Source of the DNA: Nitrobacter sp. NHB1
GTDB taxonomy: Bacteria; Pseudomonadota; Alphaproteobacteria; Rhizobiales; Xanthobacteraceae
Length of the DNA: 64,000 nt
Reading direction: 5' to 3'
Assembly (NCBI RefSeq): GCF_036964665.1
Contig: NZ_JBAMDA010000001.1
Location: forward strand, 868,001 to 932,000
A model generated the notes under the pieces. It had not been told where the DNA came from, ran no database searches, and saw only the letters and a program-made list of their open reading frames with translations. Shown in pieces: positions 500 through 39,515 of this stretch. Within the stretch, counting starts at the first letter, position 1, and each line of letters opens with the position of its first letter. The translations under genes were made by a program, and so were the position numbers.

Positions 500-943
500 T
501 GTCGCGATTATAAGGCGGTCAGTTCGCTTTGGTTCGGTGCATGATGCAAATAATACAGATCAACGAATTTGAGCGTGTCGCCGTTCAGGGTTTCGGTCGG
601 CTTCCCGCCCGGTCAAAGGTCGGCCCGTGACGCTTGCAGGTTCAAGCGTCGTGGTGAAAAAGCCTGGAAATGTTGCGGGATGTCAATGAGAAACCCGGCA
701 TTGCCATCCCCGGCCTGCGTATCCTCCGGTTGCAATGGGCCGTTTTCAGGCATCGGCCCATTTGGGCCCATTTTCTGTTCCGGCCGCCATGAACTTAATT
801 TCCCGCACAAGCGACGCACAAGGGCAGGCATAACGTGGCCCGCCGGCGGTGTGGCGCGTTAACCACTCATTCGCGTACGGGCTCGGCTCCTCGAAAAGGT
901 GCGGAGCCCGAATTCTTCCTCCAGATTGCCCCGGCAGAGGCTC
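500..943. other. Intergenic, no gene seen
   Basis: No convincing reading frame is seen here. The stretch separates the leftward Gly/Arg-rich gene from the rightward carbamoyltransferase gene, so promoters for both probably lie in it. Around 735-775 there are short direct repeats of GGCCCATTT. The ribosome binding site for the downstream gene is GCAGAGG at 934-940. Confidence 0.5.
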
Positions 944-2755
944 ATGTCAAAACAGCACACTTATGTTCTCGGTCTCAACACCTACGATCACGACGTGAGC
1001 GCCTGCCTGCTTCGCGACGGCGCCGTCGCTTGCGCCATCGCCAAGGAACGGATCACGCGCGAAAAGCACGCCAGCGGGTTTTTTAAGGAAGTCATCGACT
1101 ATTGCCTGAGCGCCGAAGGCATCGGCATCGGCGACGTCGATCTGGTGGTCCGCAATTGCTACATCCTTCCCGTTGCGGAGATGGAGGAGCGGCTGATCTA
1201 TCAGGACATGCCGGGATTCCTTCCCGCCGAGGAGCGCCCGGATGCGCACGACCATCCGTATTTCCGCTCGCGCTCCGACAAGGTGGTGTCGATCTCCCAC
1301 CATCTGGCGCACGCCTACAGCGCCTTTGCGGCCTGCCCGTTCGATGAGGGCGCGATTATGATCGTCGACGGCGTCGGCAGCTATCGTTCGGACGTGACCG
1401 AGCCCTATCCGGAAAGCGACGCCGCATCGCCGCTCGCGCGGGAATCGGAGAGCTACTACCGGTTCAGCGGCGAAACTCTCGAAAGCCTGAAGAAGGTCTG
1501 GATGGAGCCGGACCGCGGCTTTTTCAGCGACGAGTTCTACAACATGCCGGGCCTCGGAGCGCTTTACAGCCGCGCCTCGACCTACGTGTTCGGCGACTGG
1601 AACAAATGCGGCGAGTTGATGGGGCTCGCACCGTACGGGCGCCGCGAGCAGGTCAAGTCGCTGATGGAGATCGCCGACAATCAGCTCACGGTCCTGCGCT
1701 GGTCGGCCGAGTTCAACCAGCCCTATGTCGTCGACGGCGGCGGAAAATGGGACAGCAGCCCCTCCATGCGCCATTGGGAGGATTTGGCGTGGCGTGTTCA
1801 GGACGACACCGAAAAGGTGCTGCTCGCACGCGCCAAGTGGCTGCGGGAAACCACCGGCGCGAAGAACCTCTGCATCGCCGGCGGCGTGGCGCTGAACTGC
1901 GTCGCCAACGGACGCATCGCGCGGGAGGCCGGATTTGAGAATGTCTGGATTCAGCCCGCGGCAGGGGACGACGGCATTGCGATCGGTTGCGCCTATTACG
2001 GCTGGCTCGAAGTGTTGAAACAGCGTCGCGGATTCGTGATGGAGCACGCCTATGTCGGCCGCAGCTACTCGGATGCCGAGGTCGACGCAGCAACCAAGCG
2101 CGCGATCGTCAAGGTCCAGACGGCGGCGGTGCGAAGCTCGAACGTCTACGCCGAAACCGCGAAACTTCTGGCGGATCAGAAAGTCATCGGCTGGTTTCAG
2201 GGGCGTTCCGAATTCGGCCCGCGCGCGCTGGGCAATCGCAGCCTGATCGCCGATCCGCGCAAGGCCGATATGAAGGACATCCTCAATAGCCGGGTCAAGC
2301 ACCGCCAGCCGTTCCGCCCTTTCGCGCCCATTGTGCTGGCCGAACGCATGACGGATATCTTCGAGGGCGACGAGGACTCGCCGTTCATGCTGATCGCCAA
2401 GGCGGTTCGGCCAGAGTGGCGCGACCGGATTCCGGCGGTGGTTCACGTCGACGGCACCGCACGGGTGCAGACCGTGCGCGAGAGGACGAACCCTGCGCTC
2501 TATCGGCTGCTGAAGGAATTCGAGGAGCTGACCGGCATTCCCGTGCTGATCAACACGTCATTCAACGTCAAGGGTGAGCCGATCGTGGAGACACCGCGCG
2601 ATGCCATGCGCTGCTTCCTGACCACGGGCATCGATCATCTCGTGCTGCACGATACGGTGATTTCCAAGAAGGGGCTGCACCGGATCGTGGGGCCGCTTGT
2701 CGGCATCTATACCGACGTCGGCGCCGTCGTTATGTCGAACCTCAGGCAGGCCTGA
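944..2755 (+). CDS. Carbamoyltransferase, NodU/CmcH/TobZ family
   Basis: This is a 603-residue enzyme of the family that transfers a carbamoyl group from carbamoyl phosphate, through carbamoyl adenylate, onto a hydroxyl of a small molecule or sugar. The N-terminal Kae1-like half shows the metal-binding HHLAH at residues 119-123 and the phosphate-binding VDGVGS near 141-146. The middle has the CIAGGVALNC motif, and the C-terminal half has GRSEFGPRALGNRS near 420-435. I chose the ATG at 944 because GCAGAGG lies just upstream and the protein then begins like its relatives (SKQHTYVLGLN). The gene stands alone. No nod, antibiotic or polysaccharide genes lie beside it, so the acceptor cannot be inferred. 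Confidence 0.88.
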   Translation: MSKQHTYVLGLNTYDHDVSACLLRDGAVACAIAKERITREKHASGFFKEVIDYCLSAEGIGIGDVDLVVRNCYILPVAEMEERLIYQDMPGFLPAEERPDAHDHPYFRSRSDKVVSISHHLAHAYSAFAACPFDEGAIMIVDGVGSYRSDVTEPYPESDAASPLARESESYYRFSGETLESLKKVWMEPDRGFFSDEFYNMPGLGALYSRASTYVFGDWNKCGELMGLAPYGRREQVKSLMEIADNQLTVLRWSAEFNQPYVVDGGGKWDSSPSMRHWEDLAWRVQDDTEKVLLARAKWLRETTGAKNLCIAGGVALNCVANGRIAREAGFENVWIQPAAGDDGIAIGCAYYGWLEVLKQRRGFVMEHAYVGRSYSDAEVDAATKRAIVKVQTAAVRSSNVYAETAKLLADQKVIGWFQGRSEFGPRALGNRSLIADPRKADMKDILNSRVKHRQPFRPFAPIVLAERMTDIFEGDEDSPFMLIAKAVRPEWRDRIPAVVHVDGTARVQTVRERTNPALYRLLKEFEELTGIPVLINTSFNVKGEPIVETPRDAMRCFLTTGIDHLVLHDTVISKKGLHRIVGPLVGIYTDVGAVVMSNLRQA

Positions 2756-33315: not shown

Positions 33316-33627
33316 TTAAATATTCACGTCCTGAGCACCCGAAATGTAACCGGAATAACCAGCGTAACCCGGATAACCGGGGTATCCTGGATAGCCTGGG
33401 TAACCCGGATATCCCGGATAACCTCGATACGGTCGCGAATTAAATCGTACAAACCGGTTGCCTACAGCAGTGCCTAGGTATTTTCCGTTTGTATCGACCG
33501 CATCATTGTCGCTCCAAGGAAACCATCCAACCCACCTCCCATTCTTGTCGAACAAGTATTTGTCATCTGGACTTCGCCTGAAGCCTATCCAATTGCCGCT
33601 CATTGCAAAGTAATGCTGCGTCATCAC
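33316..33627 (-). CDS. 4-fold beta-flower-like protein with GYPGYPG tail
   Basis: This encodes 103 residues. The first half has repeated short beta motifs, YLFDKNGRWVGWF, AVDTNGKYLGTAV and NRFVRF, each built as x-D-x-N-G-x-hydrophobic-G. These match the small 4-fold beta-flower proteins. The second half is a run of GYPG units (about residues 68-88), then GYAGYSGY. No signal peptide is seen. It lies in the low-G+C patch, and its DNA repeat could shorten or lengthen by slippage. Function unknown. Confidence 0.6.
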   Translation of the reverse strand: MMTQHYFAMSGNWIGFRRSPDDKYLFDKNGRWVGWFPWSDNDAVDTNGKYLGTAVGNRFVRFNSRPYRGYPGYPGYPGYPGYPGYPGYAGYSGYISGAQDVNI

Positions 33628-33650
33628 TCTCTCCTGTTGTCTGCCCGAGG

Positions 33651-33854
33651 TTATTTCCGGCGATTATAGGGAGATTGATTAGTCGGCTTCAGCGAAACGC
33701 CATTTTCTGACGCTTTCGCTCTTACCGCTGTTTCAGTGCGGCCAAGATGCAGTCCGATTACACGAGTCGGAGTGTTGTCCTTCGCTTCTTGGCGAAGTTG
33801 CTTCACTTCGCTTGGCGTCCAAGCTTTGCCTGAGTTCCTGTCGTATTTAGCCAT
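33651..33854 (-). CDS. Small putative DNA-binding protein, SANT/Myb-like
   Basis: These are 67 residues: MAKYDRNSGKAWTPSEVKQL, then RQEAKDNTPTRVIGLHLGRT and ETAVRAKASENGVSLKPTNQ. The W-T-x-x-E-V-x-x-L opening and the later GLHLGRTETAVRAKA look like the first and recognition helices of a small helix-turn-helix of the SANT/Myb type. The end is basic. ATG 33854 gives this compact domain; an in-frame start at 33986 would add an unrelated-looking 44 residues. It lies just upstream of the beta-flower gene on the same strand, 23 bases away. Confidence 0.6.
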   Translation of the reverse strand: MAKYDRNSGKAWTPSEVKQLRQEAKDNTPTRVIGLHLGRTETAVRAKASENGVSLKPTNQSPYNRRK

Positions 33855-34002
33855 TTGTCTTGTCTTCTGCCCATTGGGCGTTGGAAAACGCTGAGGCTCC
33901 GCTGGACGCCGGATGATAGAATCGCTTAACTGCTCACGCGACTGAGAGGAAGCGATGCTTTCTCGGCGCCCCCGCAAGTACCTCAACTGTGCTTCACGGG
34001 TT

Positions 34003-34032
34003 CCAATGCCGAGGTTCGCGCCTCGGCATTGG
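34003..34032. other. Perfect 12-bp stem hairpin
   Basis: CCAATGCCGAGG and CCTCGGCATTGG pair perfectly around TTCGCG. It lies 134 bases past the end of the metallopeptidase gene in the direction of that transcript, and before the SANT-like gene. There is no T-run on the leftward side, so it is not a classical terminator; it may protect the mRNA end or bind a protein. The rest of 33855-34165 is AT-rich and holds no gene that I can see. Confidence 0.6.
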
Positions 34033-34165
34033 TATTTCAGGAAAACGAATCATTTCTTTTATACTATGAACGGTCATGCTTTGTTCGTTTTGTAAAACCT
34101 AACCTTTGCAGGTTGTCCCCAATTTTGTTGAGGAATACGAAAAGCGTTTCTCGAAACCGTATTTT

Positions 34166-34822
34166 CTAACATTCCGCCCGGCGAGCACATGTGTCGCACA
34201 TTAGGACAGTACCGTTACGAACCAATGTGAAGTTCGAGCAATCGGGACACATGTCGCCCCCATAAGTCGGCATCAATATTTCTTTCTCAGACTTAGCTTC
34301 GTGGATTCGTCGTTCGGCTAGTTCGTCGGTCACTACGCACAGACCGGCAATAACGTCGGGTATCTTAAGTTTTACAGCTACATGATCGGGCACCAAGAAA
34401 TAGTCGGCAAAAATGTTTGCCTGCCACTCGCCAGATTCTTCGTCTTGAATGAAATTGAGCTGCGCAGTTTTGTCGTCCGAGAACGCTACCGCATTACGAT
34501 CGTGGAGCACGATATGACCAATTTCGTGGGCGACTATTCGTCGAGCGTATGGTTTACCTAAGTCCGCGTCGATCCAGATTTGCTCGACGATGTGTAGCGT
34601 TAGTGGGTCGAAGGTCACGCATGCCTTCTCGTGCAAATCTTCATGGCGGTAGTAAATTATTTTGAGGGTGCCTTTGTTGCGCAGCTTTTTTGCAAGTATC
34701 TCGGTAACAAATGTGCAGATGTTAAAGCTGTGTCCAAGCCTATTAGCAACGAGCCACCAAGACATCGCAATTTTAGCGATGCCTTTGCGGTCATTGATTC
34801 GAACTTTGTGATCGCGGGCCAT
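34166..34822 (-). CDS. ImmA/IrrE-type metallopeptidase with an NrdJ-like C-terminal zinc ribbon
   Basis: This encodes 218 residues. The metallopeptidase centre is H99-E-I-G-H103 (IVAHEIGHIVLHD), and EWQANIFADYFLVP is the usual downstream block of the ImmA/IrrE family, which cleaves repressors in phages and mobile elements or acts in stress control. The last 30 residues form a ribbon with Cys at 192, 195, 209, 212 and 218. From GDMC to CDTC this tail matches the end of the adjacent NrdJ at 19 of 24 positions (shared core FTLVRNGT). No helix-turn-helix domain is attached. ATG 34822 lies ten bases after the nrdJ stop, so it is co-transcribed with nrdJ. Bases 34261-34620 are 49% G+C by hand count, unlike the bulk of nrdJ. 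Confidence 0.8.
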   Translation of the reverse strand: MARDHKVRINDRKGIAKIAMSWWLVANRLGHSFNICTFVTEILAKKLRNKGTLKIIYYRHEDLHEKACVTFDPLTLHIVEQIWIDADLGKPYARRIVAHEIGHIVLHDRNAVAFSDDKTAQLNFIQDEESGEWQANIFADYFLVPDHVAVKLKIPDVIAGLCVVTDELAERRIHEAKSEKEILMPTYGGDMCPDCSNFTLVRNGTVLMCDTCARRAEC

Positions 34823-34832
34823 AGTCGTCGTC

Positions 34833-37800
34833 TCAGCTACAGCCCGTTGTTGAACCGCAAGTGTCACATTTTAAACAAGTTCCGTTTCTCACCAAAGTGA
34901 AGCTGCTGCATTCTGCGCACATATCGCCGACATAGCCTTTCGCTTGAGCTTCTGCGCGTCGTTCGGCTTTTGAAGGCCCAAACTGCACTGATGCTGCTTG
35001 TGCTGAACCAGGCTTGCTCCGCGCTTGTGCCTCAAGCTTTTCGGTTGGCGACCGATCACGTTCTGGCTCAAGCCTCAAAGCCGTTACTGTGTTTTCGCTT
35101 TTGCTATCCGAATATCCCATTCTCGGCTGATCAGATTTGGCGACGGCATCCGTGTTCGCGATATCAGTTCCACCCCCGCGCATGACGACGAGGTTGTCGG
35201 TGCGCGAACGGGTCAGGCCCTTGGAGACGTAGCGGGTGGCCTGCTGGCCTTCCGGCTCCTTGCCTTCGGCGACACCCTTGCCGATGGCGTCGAAACCGGA
35301 TTCGCTGGGATCGACATGGGCGAGGTCGTAGCGGCCCATATAGCTCACTGCGAGTTCGCGGAACACATAGTCGAGGATCGAGGTCGCGTACTTGATCGAG
35401 TCGTTGCCCTGCACCGGGCCGGCAGGCTCGAAGCGGGTGAAGGTGAAGGCGTCGACATACTCTTCCAGCGGCACGCCGTACTGCAGGCCGAGCGACACCG
35501 CGATGGCGAAGTTGTTGATGAAGGAGCGCAGCGCCGCGCCTTCCTTGTGCATGTCGATGAATATCTCGCCGATGCGGCCGTCGTCGTATTCGCCGGTGCG
35601 GACGTAAACCTTGTGTCCGCCGACAACCGCCTTCTGGGTATAGCCCTTGCGGCGGTCCGGCATCTTCTCGCGTTCGCGCAGCACGACGATACGCTCGACC
35701 AGTTTCTCCACGACCCTTTCCGATACCTGCGCGGTGCGCGCCGCCATCGGCTTGTCATAGAACGTCTCGATCGCATCGTCATCCTCGTCGTCGTCGCTGA
35801 TGAGCTGCGAGTTGAGCGGCTGGGACAACTTCGAGCCGTCGCGGTAGAGTGCGTTGGCTTTCAGCGCGAGCTTCCAGGACAAAAGATAGGCCGACTTGCA
35901 GTCGTCCACCGTGGCGTCGTTCGGCATGTTGATGGTTTTGGAGATCGCGCCAGAGATGAACGGCTGCGACGCCGCCATCATGCGGATGTGGCTCTCGACC
36001 GACAGATAACGCTTGCCGATCTTGCCGCAGGGGTTGGCGCAGTCGAACACCGCATAGTGCTCGGCCTTGAGGTGCGGCGCGCCTTCCACCGTCATCGCGC
36101 CGCAGATGTGCACGTTGGCGGCCTCAATCTCGCGCTTGCTGAAGCCGATCGCCGCGAGCAGGTCGAAGGTCGGCGATGCGAGGGCCTCGGAGCCGATGCC
36201 GAGCGTGTCGCGGATGAAGTCTTCGCCGAACGTCCATTTGTTGAAGGCGAACTTGATGTCAAACGCAGTCGGCAGCGCTTTCTCCACTTTCACAATGGCC
36301 TCGTCGGTAAAACCCTTGGCCTTCAAGGTGGAGACGTTGATGCCGGGCGCGTTGGACAGGGAGCCGTGACCGACCGCATAGGCCTCGATCTCGGCGATCT
36401 CGCTCTCGCGATAGCCGAGTGCGCGCAACGCCTCCGGCACGGCGCGGTTGATGATTTTCCAGTAACCGCCGCCGGCCAGCTTCTTGAACTTCACCAGCGC
36501 GAAGTCGGGCTCGATGCCGGTGGTGTCGCAATCCATCACCAGGCCGATGGTGCCGGTCGGCGCCACCACGGTCACTTGCGCATTGCGGTAGCCGTGCTGT
36601 TCGCCGAGCGCGAGCGCGTCGTCCCACGCCTTCGTCGCATGGGCGATGAGGTCGGACTGCGGGCAGGAGGCATGGTCGAGCGGCACCGGGTTGACCGCGA
36701 GCGCCTCGTAGCCGTGCGACTGACCGAGCGCGGCGCGGCGGTGATTGCGAATCACGCGCAGCATGTGGCCAGCGTTCTTCTTGTAGCCGTGGAAGGCGCC
36801 GAGTTCGCCGGCCATTTCGGCGGAGGTCTTGTAGGCGATGCCGGTCATGACCGCGGTCAGCGCGCCGCACAACGCCCGGCCTTCCTTCGAGTCATAGGAC
36901 AGGCCCATGGTCATCAGGAGGCCGCCGATGTTGGCGAAGCCGAGGCCCAGCGTGCGGAATTCGTAAGAGAGCTCCGCGATCGCCTTCGACGGGAACTGCG
37001 CCATCAGCACCGAGATTTCCAGCACGACGGTCCAGAGACGGACGGTGTGTTCATAGGCGTCGATGTCGAAGGCGCGATCTTTTTCCTCCCCCCTTGTGGG
37101 GGAGGGTAGGGAGGCGGGTAAACCATTGGTGCCAGCGTTTGCAGCTTTATCCCCCTCTCCACACAAGGGGGGAGAGAACAGGGAAGCGTCTGCCGCGCTG
37201 CTGCGATAGAACGTCAGCAGATTCAGCGACGCCAGATTGCAGGCAGTGTCGTCGAGAAACATGTATTCCGAGCACGGATTCGACGCGCGGATATCGCCGG
37301 ATGCCTTGCAGGTGTGCCAGTCGTTCATGGTGGTGTTGAAGTGCAGGCCGGGATCGGCCGATGCCCAGGCGGCGTAACCGATCTTTTCCCAGAGATCGCG
37401 GGCCTTCAGCGTCTTCGTCACCTTCTTGTTGGTGCGGCCGACCAGACTCCAGTCGCCGTCGGTCTCGACCGCGCGCAGGAAGTCGTCCTTTAGCGACACC
37501 GAGTTGTTGGAATTCTGGCCGGAGACGGTGAGATAGGCCTCGGAGTCCCAGTCCGTATCGTAGACCGGGAAGTCGATGTCCTTGTAGCCCTGCCGGGCGT
37601 ACTGGATCACCCGCTTGATGACGTTGTCGTTGACCAGCGCGCGGCGCGCCAGCTTGATCTCGCGGCGCAACGCCGGGTTCTTCTCGGGATCGAAGCAGTC
37701 GTCGCCCGAGCCCTCGCAGTTGACGCAGGCCTTCATGATGGCCTTGAGGTGCTTCTGGTTCAGCTTCGAGCCGGTGACCAGCGCCGCGACCTTCTGCTCC

Positions 37801-38699
37801 TCCTTCACCTTCCAGTCGATGTACTGCTCGATGTCCGGATGATCGGCATCGACCACCACCATCTTGGCGGCGCGGCGCGTGGTGCCGCCCGACTTGATAG
37901 CGCCCGCGGCGCGGTCGCCGATCTTGAGGAAACTCATCAGGCCGGAGGAGCGGCCGCCGCCCGAGAGGCGTTCGCCTTCACCGCGCAGCCGCGAGAAATT
38001 GGAGCCGGTGCCGGAGCCGTATTTGAACAGGCGCGCCTCGCGCACCCACAGGTCCATGATGCCGCCCTCGTTGACGAGGTCGTCCTCGATACCCTGGATG
38101 AAGCAGGCGTGCGGCTGCGGATGCTCGTAGGACGACTTCGACCTGGTCATCTTGCCGGTCTTGAAGTCGACGTAGTAGTGACCCTGGCCGGGTCCATCGA
38201 CGCCGTAGGCCCAGTGCAGTCCGGTGTTGAACCACTGCGGCGAGTTTGGCGCCACCATCTGGCGCGCCAGCATGTAGCGCAGTTCGTCGTTGAAGGCGCG
38301 AGCGTCGTCTTCGCTCGTGAAGTAGCCGCCTTTCCAGCCCCAATAGGTCCAGCACCCCGCGAGGCGATCGAACACCTGCTTTGAGGAGAGTTCGCTGCCG
38401 AAGCGCTCTTTTTCGGGCAGCAGGCTGAGCGCCTCGGTGTCCGGCTCTGAGCGCCACAGCCACGACGGCACGGTCTCTTCCTCGACCTTCTTCAGGCGCG
38501 CCGCGACGCCCGCCTTCCGGAAATACTTCTGGGCCAGAACATCGGAAGCCACCTGCGACCAGAACTCCGGCACTTCCACGTTCTCGAGGCGAAACACCAC
38601 CGAACCGTCCGGATTACGGATCTCGCTTGTCGTCAGCCGGAAATCGATCTCCGCATAGGGTGACTGGCCATCTTTGGTGTAGCGCCGTTGGAATCGCAT
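34833..38699 (-). CDS. nrdJ: Vitamin B12-dependent class II ribonucleotide reductase, with an in-frame repeat
   Basis: This 1288-residue adenosylcobalamin-dependent enzyme makes deoxyribonucleotides with or without oxygen. Landmarks are [15 protein letters not shown], the [14 protein letters not shown] region, the active-site [15 protein letters not shown], and [26 protein letters not shown]-type region ([17 protein letters not shown]) follows, then a C-terminal ribbon with Cys at 1261, 1264, 1275, 1278, 1281 and 1287. Around residues 509-538 a palindromic repeat (37086-37174) is translated between LLTFYR and FDIDAYEH, adding about 36 residues relative to relatives. After about residue 1179 the DNA falls from 67% to about 52% G+C. 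ATG 38699 fits relatives. No cobalamin riboswitch was found upstream. Confidence 0.95.
37086..37174. repeat. Palindromic repeat inside nrdJ
   Basis: The arms CTCCCCCCTTGTG (37086-37098) and CACAAGGGGGGAG (37162-37174) are perfect complements. This is a repeat of the kind normally found between genes in Rhizobiales. Here it is read in frame, giving Pro/Gly/Ser-rich protein ([12 protein letters not shown] on one side, [12 protein letters not shown] on the other). Confidence 0.88.
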
Positions 38700-39515
38700 T
38701 GTCTTCGTGCCCCGTAACTGCCCGTAACCGCTTCGGCGCGGCATCGGCGATTTCCATTCGCGGACTTTTCGCGGCCCGCAGCTTCAGCCGGTGGTTCCGG
38801 CCCTGTTTTCCTGGAAGCCCGATCCGCCCGAACCTTCCGGTTCGGCCACGCTTCGGACTCAACGCCTTACACCTCGATTTGAGCCGGCCCCCGGTTTTTG
38901 GCCGCCCTGATAGCCCCGGTTTCAGAGCAGACACGTCCACGCTCCGCTGCCTCGACCGGCGGACGGAGTGGCCATTCTGGAACCCTTCAGGAGCGACCGG
39001 CGAAGACCCGAAACACACTCGCGCCGAACAGGATCGAAGCTATGACGACTCCGTCGTACCCGTCAAGGAGTAGTACGAGTTTCTAAATCAAATACTAAAT
39101 ATGGTGGAAAGAGAGGAAAGCCAGGGATCAAACCCGCGCCTTGGATGGTCCCAAGTATCAGTGAGTCCTCAGGGATTCCCAAGCGAAAGAATCCTCCAAT
39201 TCACTCTTCGGACGAGCTTCGCACGCTGTTCACAGGACAACTATTTATTGCTCGCGAGGGATTGCTTTAAGCGCGACTCGCGCCGCACCGCGGCGTAGCT
39301 GGCGAACCGGCCTGGGCGAGAGCGCAGCGTCGTCATAACCGGCGTTCTGGCGGTCAATTCCGCCGGATTCTTCAATCAATGCCAGAGAGTAACTCGGGGC
39401 TCGAATTACAGTCGTGTGTACGGAGTACGGAGCGTTAAAAACAAAAGCGGTGCACGAAGGCACCGCTCCTGGATTTGAGGGCAACGGCTCGCGAATCGCG
39501 AGCCCGGCCACGTGT
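38700..39515. other. Intergenic, nrdJ upstream region, no gene seen
   Basis: About 800 bases have no convincing gene. The first 350 are GC-rich and give open but meaningless frames on both strands. Around 39077-39105 there is an AT-rich block (GTTTCTAAATCAAATACTAA) that could hold the nrdJ promoter. I looked for a cobalamin riboswitch (GCCACTG box) and paired NrdR boxes and saw neither. Confidence 0.45.

Follow-up and report, generated by a model that had tools for sequence, protein, structure and literature searches.

Why should the gene of a metallopeptidase lie directly behind that of an essential reductase and end in a copy of the reductase's own tail? This question is raised by a stretch of DNA of 64,000 nucleotides from Nitrobacter sp. 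NHB1 (contig NZ_JBAMDA010000001.1, positions 868,001 to 932,000), called here the window, in which nrdJ is followed by the gene of an M78 peptidase with a C-terminal zinc ribbon. We found that such ribbon-bearing M78 proteins are near-perfectly linked to nrdJ in Hyphomicrobiales-type alphaproteobacteria, and this link of a whole clade needs explaining even without any mechanism. The explanation which we favour, at a rough probability of 0.35, is that of a CapP-like protease linked to ribonucleotide reductase, which would be docked through its ribbon and have the NrdJ linker as its target. Below, G000 denotes the window's own genome, other G-numbers the other genomes sampled, and subfamily A the close, main subfamily of the peptidase.

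34833..38744, minus strand: nrdJ, class II (B12-dependent) ribonucleotide reductase, 1303 residues (open reading frame, Pfam, NCBIfam).
34823..34832, minus strand: intergenic gap of 10 bases from the nrdJ stop to the peptidase start (sequence).
34166..34822, minus strand: M78 (ImmA/IrrE-type) metallopeptidase gene, 218 residues from ATG, HEIGH motif, guanine-plus-cytosine (GC) content 0.49 (PF06114, model).
34502..34531, minus strand: AHEIGHIVLH codons, peptidase residues 98-107, the predicted metal-binding/catalytic motif (alignment).
34169..34258, minus strand: peptidase C-terminal zinc ribbon, residues 189-218, NrdJ-like, with four zinc-type cysteines kept and without the Cys-933-type residue.
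34836..34928, minus strand: NrdJ C-terminal six-cysteine zinc ribbon, residues 1273-1303 (cysteine pattern; accessible part of PMC5704485).

An earlier, sequence-only reading of this DNA had described the two genes as co-directional and ten bases apart, which is correct, and had asked how often M78 proteins ending in the ribbon adjoin nrdJ in databases. Its interpretation was supported in part. Searching 296 genomes of the window's family with peptidase residues 1-177 only, we obtained 13 matches in 12 genomes; 11 of them were the first M78 gene behind nrdJ, and the remaining two were a second M78 gene at the same place in G243 and a gene starting at a contig edge in G261. In a second sample, of 391 genomes, three more such genes were found behind nrdJ (G691, G727 and G712), together with three ribbon-less M78 genes not adjoining nrdJ, one of which lies about 4 kb further on in G727. 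The order-wide search matched 19 of 397 genomes and the contig search yielded at least two relatives (locus L124 was left out). Jointly, these searches added G344 (frameshifted), G409, G617 and a Devosia, as well as M78 genes without the ribbon behind nrdJ in G383, G436, G653 and a Rhodobacterales bacterium; M78 genes elsewhere and bare NrdJ tails were also returned. Members of subfamily B (G043, G174, G207, G257, G314) are likewise located behind nrdJ, and a query from this subfamily matched 7 of 296 genomes, in each case at nrdJ; two of the proteins were ribbon-less. The ribbon-bearing M78 was thus present in 20 genomes (14 subfamily A, one of them frameshifted, 5 subfamily B and 1 other), and in all 19 with a readable flank it follows nrdJ on the same strand, 18 times at a distance of 6-228 bp and in G617 at 625 bp.

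The outcomes which the sequence-only reading had named as refuting it mostly did not occur. One of them was that most homologues adjacent to nrdJ lack the ribbon; it is present in 14 of 14 members of subfamily A, but absent from 9 of the 28 M78 first neighbours of nrdJ. Among M78 loci situated elsewhere (27 picked, 25 read) none had a ribbon. Over 101 relatives there were 143 M78 matches, 6 of which lie within 2 kb behind nrdJ, where chance alone would place about 0.07. Mapped onto a tree of 52 M78 domains, a location behind nrdJ requires 4 changes, versus a mean of 17.6 after shuffling, and none of 500 shufflings was as low; 7 of the 24 rows labelled as elsewhere fall among the nrdJ-linked ones, and some of these were fetched because of similarity. 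A phage or plasmid gene was also considered and rejected. Plasmids gave 8 records, namely one distant M78 and seven short ribbon-end matches (one with a NrdJ annotation, the other six outside any listed gene and taken as NrdJ tails), phages gave 2 distant matches, and IMG/VR gave 3 distant M78 matches, counted irrespective of a ribbon. In G617 a small HNH-like open reading frame (ORF; by eye, L131:919-1212) stands between nrdJ and the ribbon-bearing M78, and may encode a homing-type nuclease.

The likeness of the two protein ends, on which the sequence-only reading was built, was confirmed. From GDMC to CDTC, 19 of 24 residues are identical between the peptidase ribbon and the NrdJ tail (by eye), and the NCBIfam NrdJ model matches the last 50 residues of the peptidase (169-218) with E 6.4e-9. 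Over the whole aligned tail 20 of 31 residues are identical, and only 9 of those 20 are written in the same codon; therefore a recent DNA duplication of the nrdJ tail in G000 is ruled out, and the conservation is at the protein level, as had been claimed. The possibility that the ribbon is a domain common to many unrelated proteins was rejected as well, since the window's own genome shows it only in NrdJ and the peptidase (at E <= 10 the peptidase query matched, apart from itself, the NrdJ tail and, weakly, one M78 region on another contig), and the matches listed in a class-wide ribbon search were mostly NrdJ-size frames, seven shorter frames being left out.

According to the accessible part of PMC5704485, four cysteines of the NrdJ tail bind zinc and two form a redox pair, all six being required for electron transfer. 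This six-cysteine array was found in 116 of 117 NrdJ tails versus 0 of 18 peptidase ribbons, which places the latter outside the NrdJ cysteine-rich domain as defined by four zinc and two redox cysteines. The CxxC-CxxC zinc pattern is kept in 17 of the 18 ribbons, P0019 having CxxC-CxC. With the zinc pattern kept and the redox array incomplete, the peptidase ribbon thus appears, by its cysteines, to be a zinc-only copy of the NrdJ tail. The earlier idea of the ribbon as a redox sensor of the peptidase has become less supported, because the redox-active cysteine pair is never complete in the 18 ribbons; a zinc ribbon may still sense oxidation. The accompanying statement that the cysteine-rich tail contacts thioredoxin finds no support for a tail of this type, as the one enzyme tested in the available portion of Loderer 2017 (PMC5704485) was inactive with native thioredoxins or glutaredoxin.

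The assignment of the peptidase to the ImmA/IrrE type was found to be right: it matches Pfam PF06114 (M78) with 36.2 bits and E 6.2e-9, the cut-off being 22. Residues A98, H99, E100, G102, H103, L106 and H107 are invariant in 13 of 13 aligned members of subfamily A, and HEIGH is kept in these members apart from one HEVGH. A model built from 13 aligned relatives had a mean predicted local distance difference test (pLDDT) score of 81.6, with 65-76 in the ribbon blocks. Foldseek indicated CapP (7t5t) and IrrE (3dti) as the nearest solved folds, with a probability of 1.00 but E values of 3e-3 to 1.5e-2, whereas profile comparison gave CapP as the nearest solved structure at E 1e-9; the best PADLOC match was also capP (2.3e-8). 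On these matches the peptidase is an M78 protein of CapP/IrrE likeness, for which specific proteolysis is predicted.

A possible target was indicated by the NrdJ protein itself.

35100..35126, minus strand: codons for PRMGYSDSK, the NrdJ linker motif (residues 1207-1215) at which recognition or cleavage may take place (alignment).

The motif is located in the NrdJ linker, between the barrel/TSCPD part and NrdJ's own ribbon. Besides the form present in G000, genomes bearing the peptidase have PRMGFSPPE, PRMAFSSPE, IKMPYSAPE, VKMAYSHPE, VKMAYSQPE and VRMNYSKLD. Within the window's family, 9 of 10 bearing genomes have the pattern [MLI].[YF]S, chosen post hoc, and 7 of 10 have [RK]M.[YF]S, versus none of 107 other tails for either pattern; the comparison tails include NrdJs adjoining subfamily B and other M78s. 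As to hold-outs, the motif was matched by G727 and by G691, a close kin of G243 and hardly independent, while G712 has KLGFT. Across five lineages the amino-acid identity of the motif is 0.43 (0.62 in its core), versus 0.11 in both flanks. Identical motif residues use different codons in 99 of 153 cases, so that the conservation is that of a protein and a DNA-level site was rejected. In G727 the motif is present within an otherwise native-type linker. A special linker motif in the NrdJ partner of subfamily A is what would be expected if NrdJ were bound or cut.

The following mechanism may be proposed. The peptidase lives at the 3' end of nrdJ and would spread together with a matching NrdJ tail, and its ribbon, as a structural mimic of that tail, would dock the protease onto NrdJ or a partner of NrdJ. 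CapP and IrrE cleave one specific partner after binding single-stranded DNA, as described in the accessible parts of PMC10904395 and PMC13373217, and by analogy such DNA could be the trigger here. The triggered protease would then cut the NrdJ linker at or near the motif; without its tail NrdJ could no longer re-reduce its active site, the supply of deoxynucleoside triphosphates would cease, and the resulting growth arrest would starve a DNA phage. As to its origin, the ribbon probably began as a copy of the nrdJ 3' end that had been displaced, free copies of which are found behind nrdJ in other genomes. Docking, linker cleavage and the defence role are what we infer from the arrangement described above.

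Several observations weigh against this proposal. The motif was picked after the sequences had been seen. When one lineage at a time was left out, 7 of 10 bearing tails beat all 107 non-bearing ones, G251 and G000 were matched by 1 and 2 of them, and G712 failed (48 of 107). Outside the window's family the motif is weak (G409, G344 and Devosia rank 4, 19 and 26 of 110), and a control with random quintets was uninformative because other short linker blocks are equally conserved. Subfamily B and the ribbon-less M78s sit behind nrdJ without the linker motif. Special likeness to NrdJ is lacking in the ribbons of G106, G197, G254, G251, G712, G409 and subfamily B, whereas it is high in G000, G243, G691, G727 and Devosia. 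In G000 itself we recognised none of the genes behind the peptidase as a defence gene. Finally, in 8 of 12 bearing genomes no PF02867 reductase other than NrdJ was found, and cutting NrdJ would therefore be lethal unless the protease were tightly held off; G000 has a second reductase besides NrdJ (C1:2684014).

The alternative that survives best, though we regard it as rather doubtful, is a CapP-like regulator which senses infection or DNA damage, cuts some repressor and thereby switches on adjacent anti-phage genes; the nrdJ site would provide steady co-transcription within an insertion hotspot, and the nrdJ tail would hitchhike. It agrees with the rank of CapP among solved structures and PADLOC models, with the control of adjacent immune operons by CapH and CapP reported in the available part of PMC13373217, and with the gene company of the peptidases. 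Behind those of subfamily A we recognised NACHT (G691), AIPR/AbiU (G251, and G712 by eye), AbiTii (G254), DUF4145/PD-T7-4 (G304) and an AAA_15/AAA_21 ATPase (Devosia). G207 has a row (L219:263-3896) of nrdJ, a ribbon M78 of subfamily B, a CBASS cyclase, an E2-like protein and a patatin phospholipase, which resembles CBASS with an unusual first gene. On the other hand, no helix-turn-helix repressor gene was seen by eye beside the peptidases of the subfamily-A loci listed, save an ORF bearing this domain in G243, and behind the peptidases of G000, G106, G197, G344 and G409 no defence gene was recognised (by eye, part of the ORFs scanned). The ribbon and the NrdJ motif are also left unexplained by such a regulator.

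That the site is rich in defence genes was indicated by a PADLOC scan of the first 1.45 kb behind nrdJ (52 loci, 69 ORFs) and of a control region 4.8-6.25 kb downstream (35 loci, 44 ORFs). The families matched numbered 89 near nrdJ versus 12 in the control, figures which, with 25 of the 89 families listed and without assignment to members, give a lower impression and not a count of defence proteins. Families near nrdJ include capP (5 members, the M78s), E1-E2, PDC-S34, AriAB, type II methyltransferase, AbiTii and ThsB, and the control matches were mainly UvrD-like helicase models and one mad2. The 3' flank of nrdJ is, by these matches, rich in predicted anti-phage genes, and it is this company which suggests that the peptidase may protect against phage. 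A SLATT and ThsB-TIR pair occurs at the site without the peptidase. Two further loci may be mentioned: in G002 (L025:8325-9856) a pair of 312 and 197 residues, the second apparently membrane-bound, lies directly behind nrdJ and is a candidate new defence pair, and in G039 (L036:8659-9895) an MT-A70-type methylase and a BglII-like ORF (by eye) are found behind nrdJ, beside a displaced tail copy.

Two further features of the window concern the nrdJ 3' end and its flank.

34833..35168, minus strand: foreign nrdJ 3' segment, linker plus ribbon (identity to genus mates, GC 0.52).
33627..34057, minus strand: shared flank, small ORF MAKYDRNSGKAWTPSEVKQL, about 83% DNA identity to the sequence directly behind nrdJ of G003 (coordinates converted from an offset).

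The last ~330 bp of nrdJ in G000 (34833 to ~35168) are 0.36-0.74 identical to seven genus mates, versus 0.83-0.97 in upstream windows, and have a GC content of 0.52 versus 0.63 in the rest of the gene; judged by identity and composition, this 3' end is foreign. In genus g24 the nrdJ tail of G251 is clearly divergent in the same way, G243 and G304 show identities of 0.45-0.70 over the initial portion of the linker and 0.76-0.93 thereafter, and eleven peptidase-free genomes are 0.65-1.00 identical among themselves. Between nrdJ and the point where the shared flank begins again, the genus mates of G000 have differing inserts; no shared flank was found there for G001, G006 and G008. In G000 the G003-like flank appears at an offset of +776..1173 from the nrdJ stop, and from its identity to G003 the native flank resumes there. 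The unit of nrdJ tail and peptidase is accessory, low in GC and foreign.

Displaced copies of the gene end were also detected. Of the 92 relatives in which the tail was matched, 89 were surveyed (all except G063, G068 and G090). Free second nrdJ tails lie behind nrdJ in four of them (G009, G027, G039, G051), with a weak copy in G044, and further displaced tails were seen in G231, UBA3080, G409, G436 and G653. In some loci such copies may represent a direct repeat of the gene end at the far side of an inserted element; in G000 the sole second copy is the peptidase ribbon. In G009 (L034) the ribbon-coding nrdJ end is tandemly duplicated, the first copy losing its final cysteine and continuing in another frame. 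A tyrosine-recombinase element was considered and rejected: in 30 genomes, the matches listed at distances of up to 10 kb from nrdJ included no PF00589 integrase.

The ribbon could also be nothing but a by-product of recombination, in which insertions at the 3' end of nrdJ displace its tail, an in-frame fusion joins one copy to a cargo gene, and conversion with nrdJ keeps some ribbons NrdJ-like, with at most a generic stabilising or homology-anchor role. The free tails fit this, as does G409, in which a separate displaced tail comes after the ribbon-bearing peptidase. The Devosia ribbon scores best with its own NrdJ tail among 120 tails, which suggests capture or conversion from the neighbouring nrdJ, and 18 of their 27 shared residues have identical codons. 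We nevertheless consider a mere by-product unlikely, as the zinc cysteines are kept at 31-58% identity to P0001 while the complete redox array is lost, which decay would not achieve, and the linker motif would need a separate explanation.

Integrated decoys operate in plant immune receptors. A guard or decoy, in which the peptidase is held inactive on NrdJ until phage attack on the reductase tail or the ribbon frees it for another protein, would suit an effector-like enzyme which bears a zinc-only mimic of the tail of an essential one and is encoded in a defence-rich site, and phage reductases are stated in the accessible part of PMC13275509 to stimulate the defence system DRT9, but we regard it as quite improbable, since neither trigger nor second target is known and many members' ribbons are not close mimics of NrdJ.

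Returning to the docked protease that we favour, its fullest form, itself doubtful, would be that incoming DNA replaces the host nrdJ 3' end, adding both a recognition motif and a peptidase with a zinc-only docking arm, and so installs an abortive-infection switch which cuts the electron-delivering tail of NrdJ. As NrdJ is the sole large reductase found in the 8 genomes mentioned, this cleavage would bring growth to a halt in the manner of abortive systems. If this were true, ribonucleotide reductase would have a protease that turns it off or guards it, and a mobile gene would here alter the 3' end of an essential gene of its host so as to create its own target. The 3' end of nrdJ would then be a place to seek new anti-phage genes in Rhizobiales-type bacteria, and the system would provide a direct test of the role of the poorly understood class II tail.

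Some details of the window remain to be added. An alternative GTG start of the peptidase within nrdJ would give 233 residues. A promoter between the two genes was considered and rejected, as no sigma-70-like match was present in 33900-35300, other promoter types being possible. nrdJ carries an in-frame insertion of 126 bp (42 residues; window 37080-37205) with 26-base inverted ends, which is not present in the seven genus mates read and resembles a palindromic repeat element within the coding region of an essential enzyme.

How does this locus compare with known systems? ImmA-ImmR is a further M78 peptidase-partner system with the HExxH core, and bacterial defence hotspots or islands hold varied accessory anti-phage genes at one chromosomal site. 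The nrdJ 3' end likewise holds varied accessory anti-phage genes, but displaced nrdJ tails mark the site and no tyrosine recombinase was among the matches listed within 10 kb. Among the papers listed for us from the open-licence PMC literature we found no report of the nrdJ 3' end as an insertion or defence site, or of the arrangement of ribbon, M78 and reductase. With the NrdJ cysteine-rich domain, as given in the accessible part of PMC5704485, the peptidase ribbons share the CxxC-CxxC ribbon and similar loop residues, but not the complete redox array. The IrrE/PprI-DdrO pair of Deinococcus has the same HExxH M78 core, and IrrE cuts its one partner in a loop (PMC10904395, available portion), whereas the peptidase described here has a zinc ribbon and no helix-turn-helix partner found alongside, its proposed partner being a metabolic enzyme. 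CapP of CapH-CapP is also an M78 peptidase, sits with immune operons and cleaves specifically after binding single-stranded DNA, according to the accessible parts of PMC10904395 and PMC13373217. An immune operon downstream is present in G691, G251, G254, G304 and Devosia, with none recognised in G000; apart from the ORF of G243, a helix-turn-helix repressor beside the peptidase was not found among ORFs viewed by eye, without a hidden Markov model scan of all ORFs. Unlike in CapH-CapP, it is nrdJ and not a repressor gene that precedes the peptidase, and the peptidase itself ends in the NrdJ-like ribbon.

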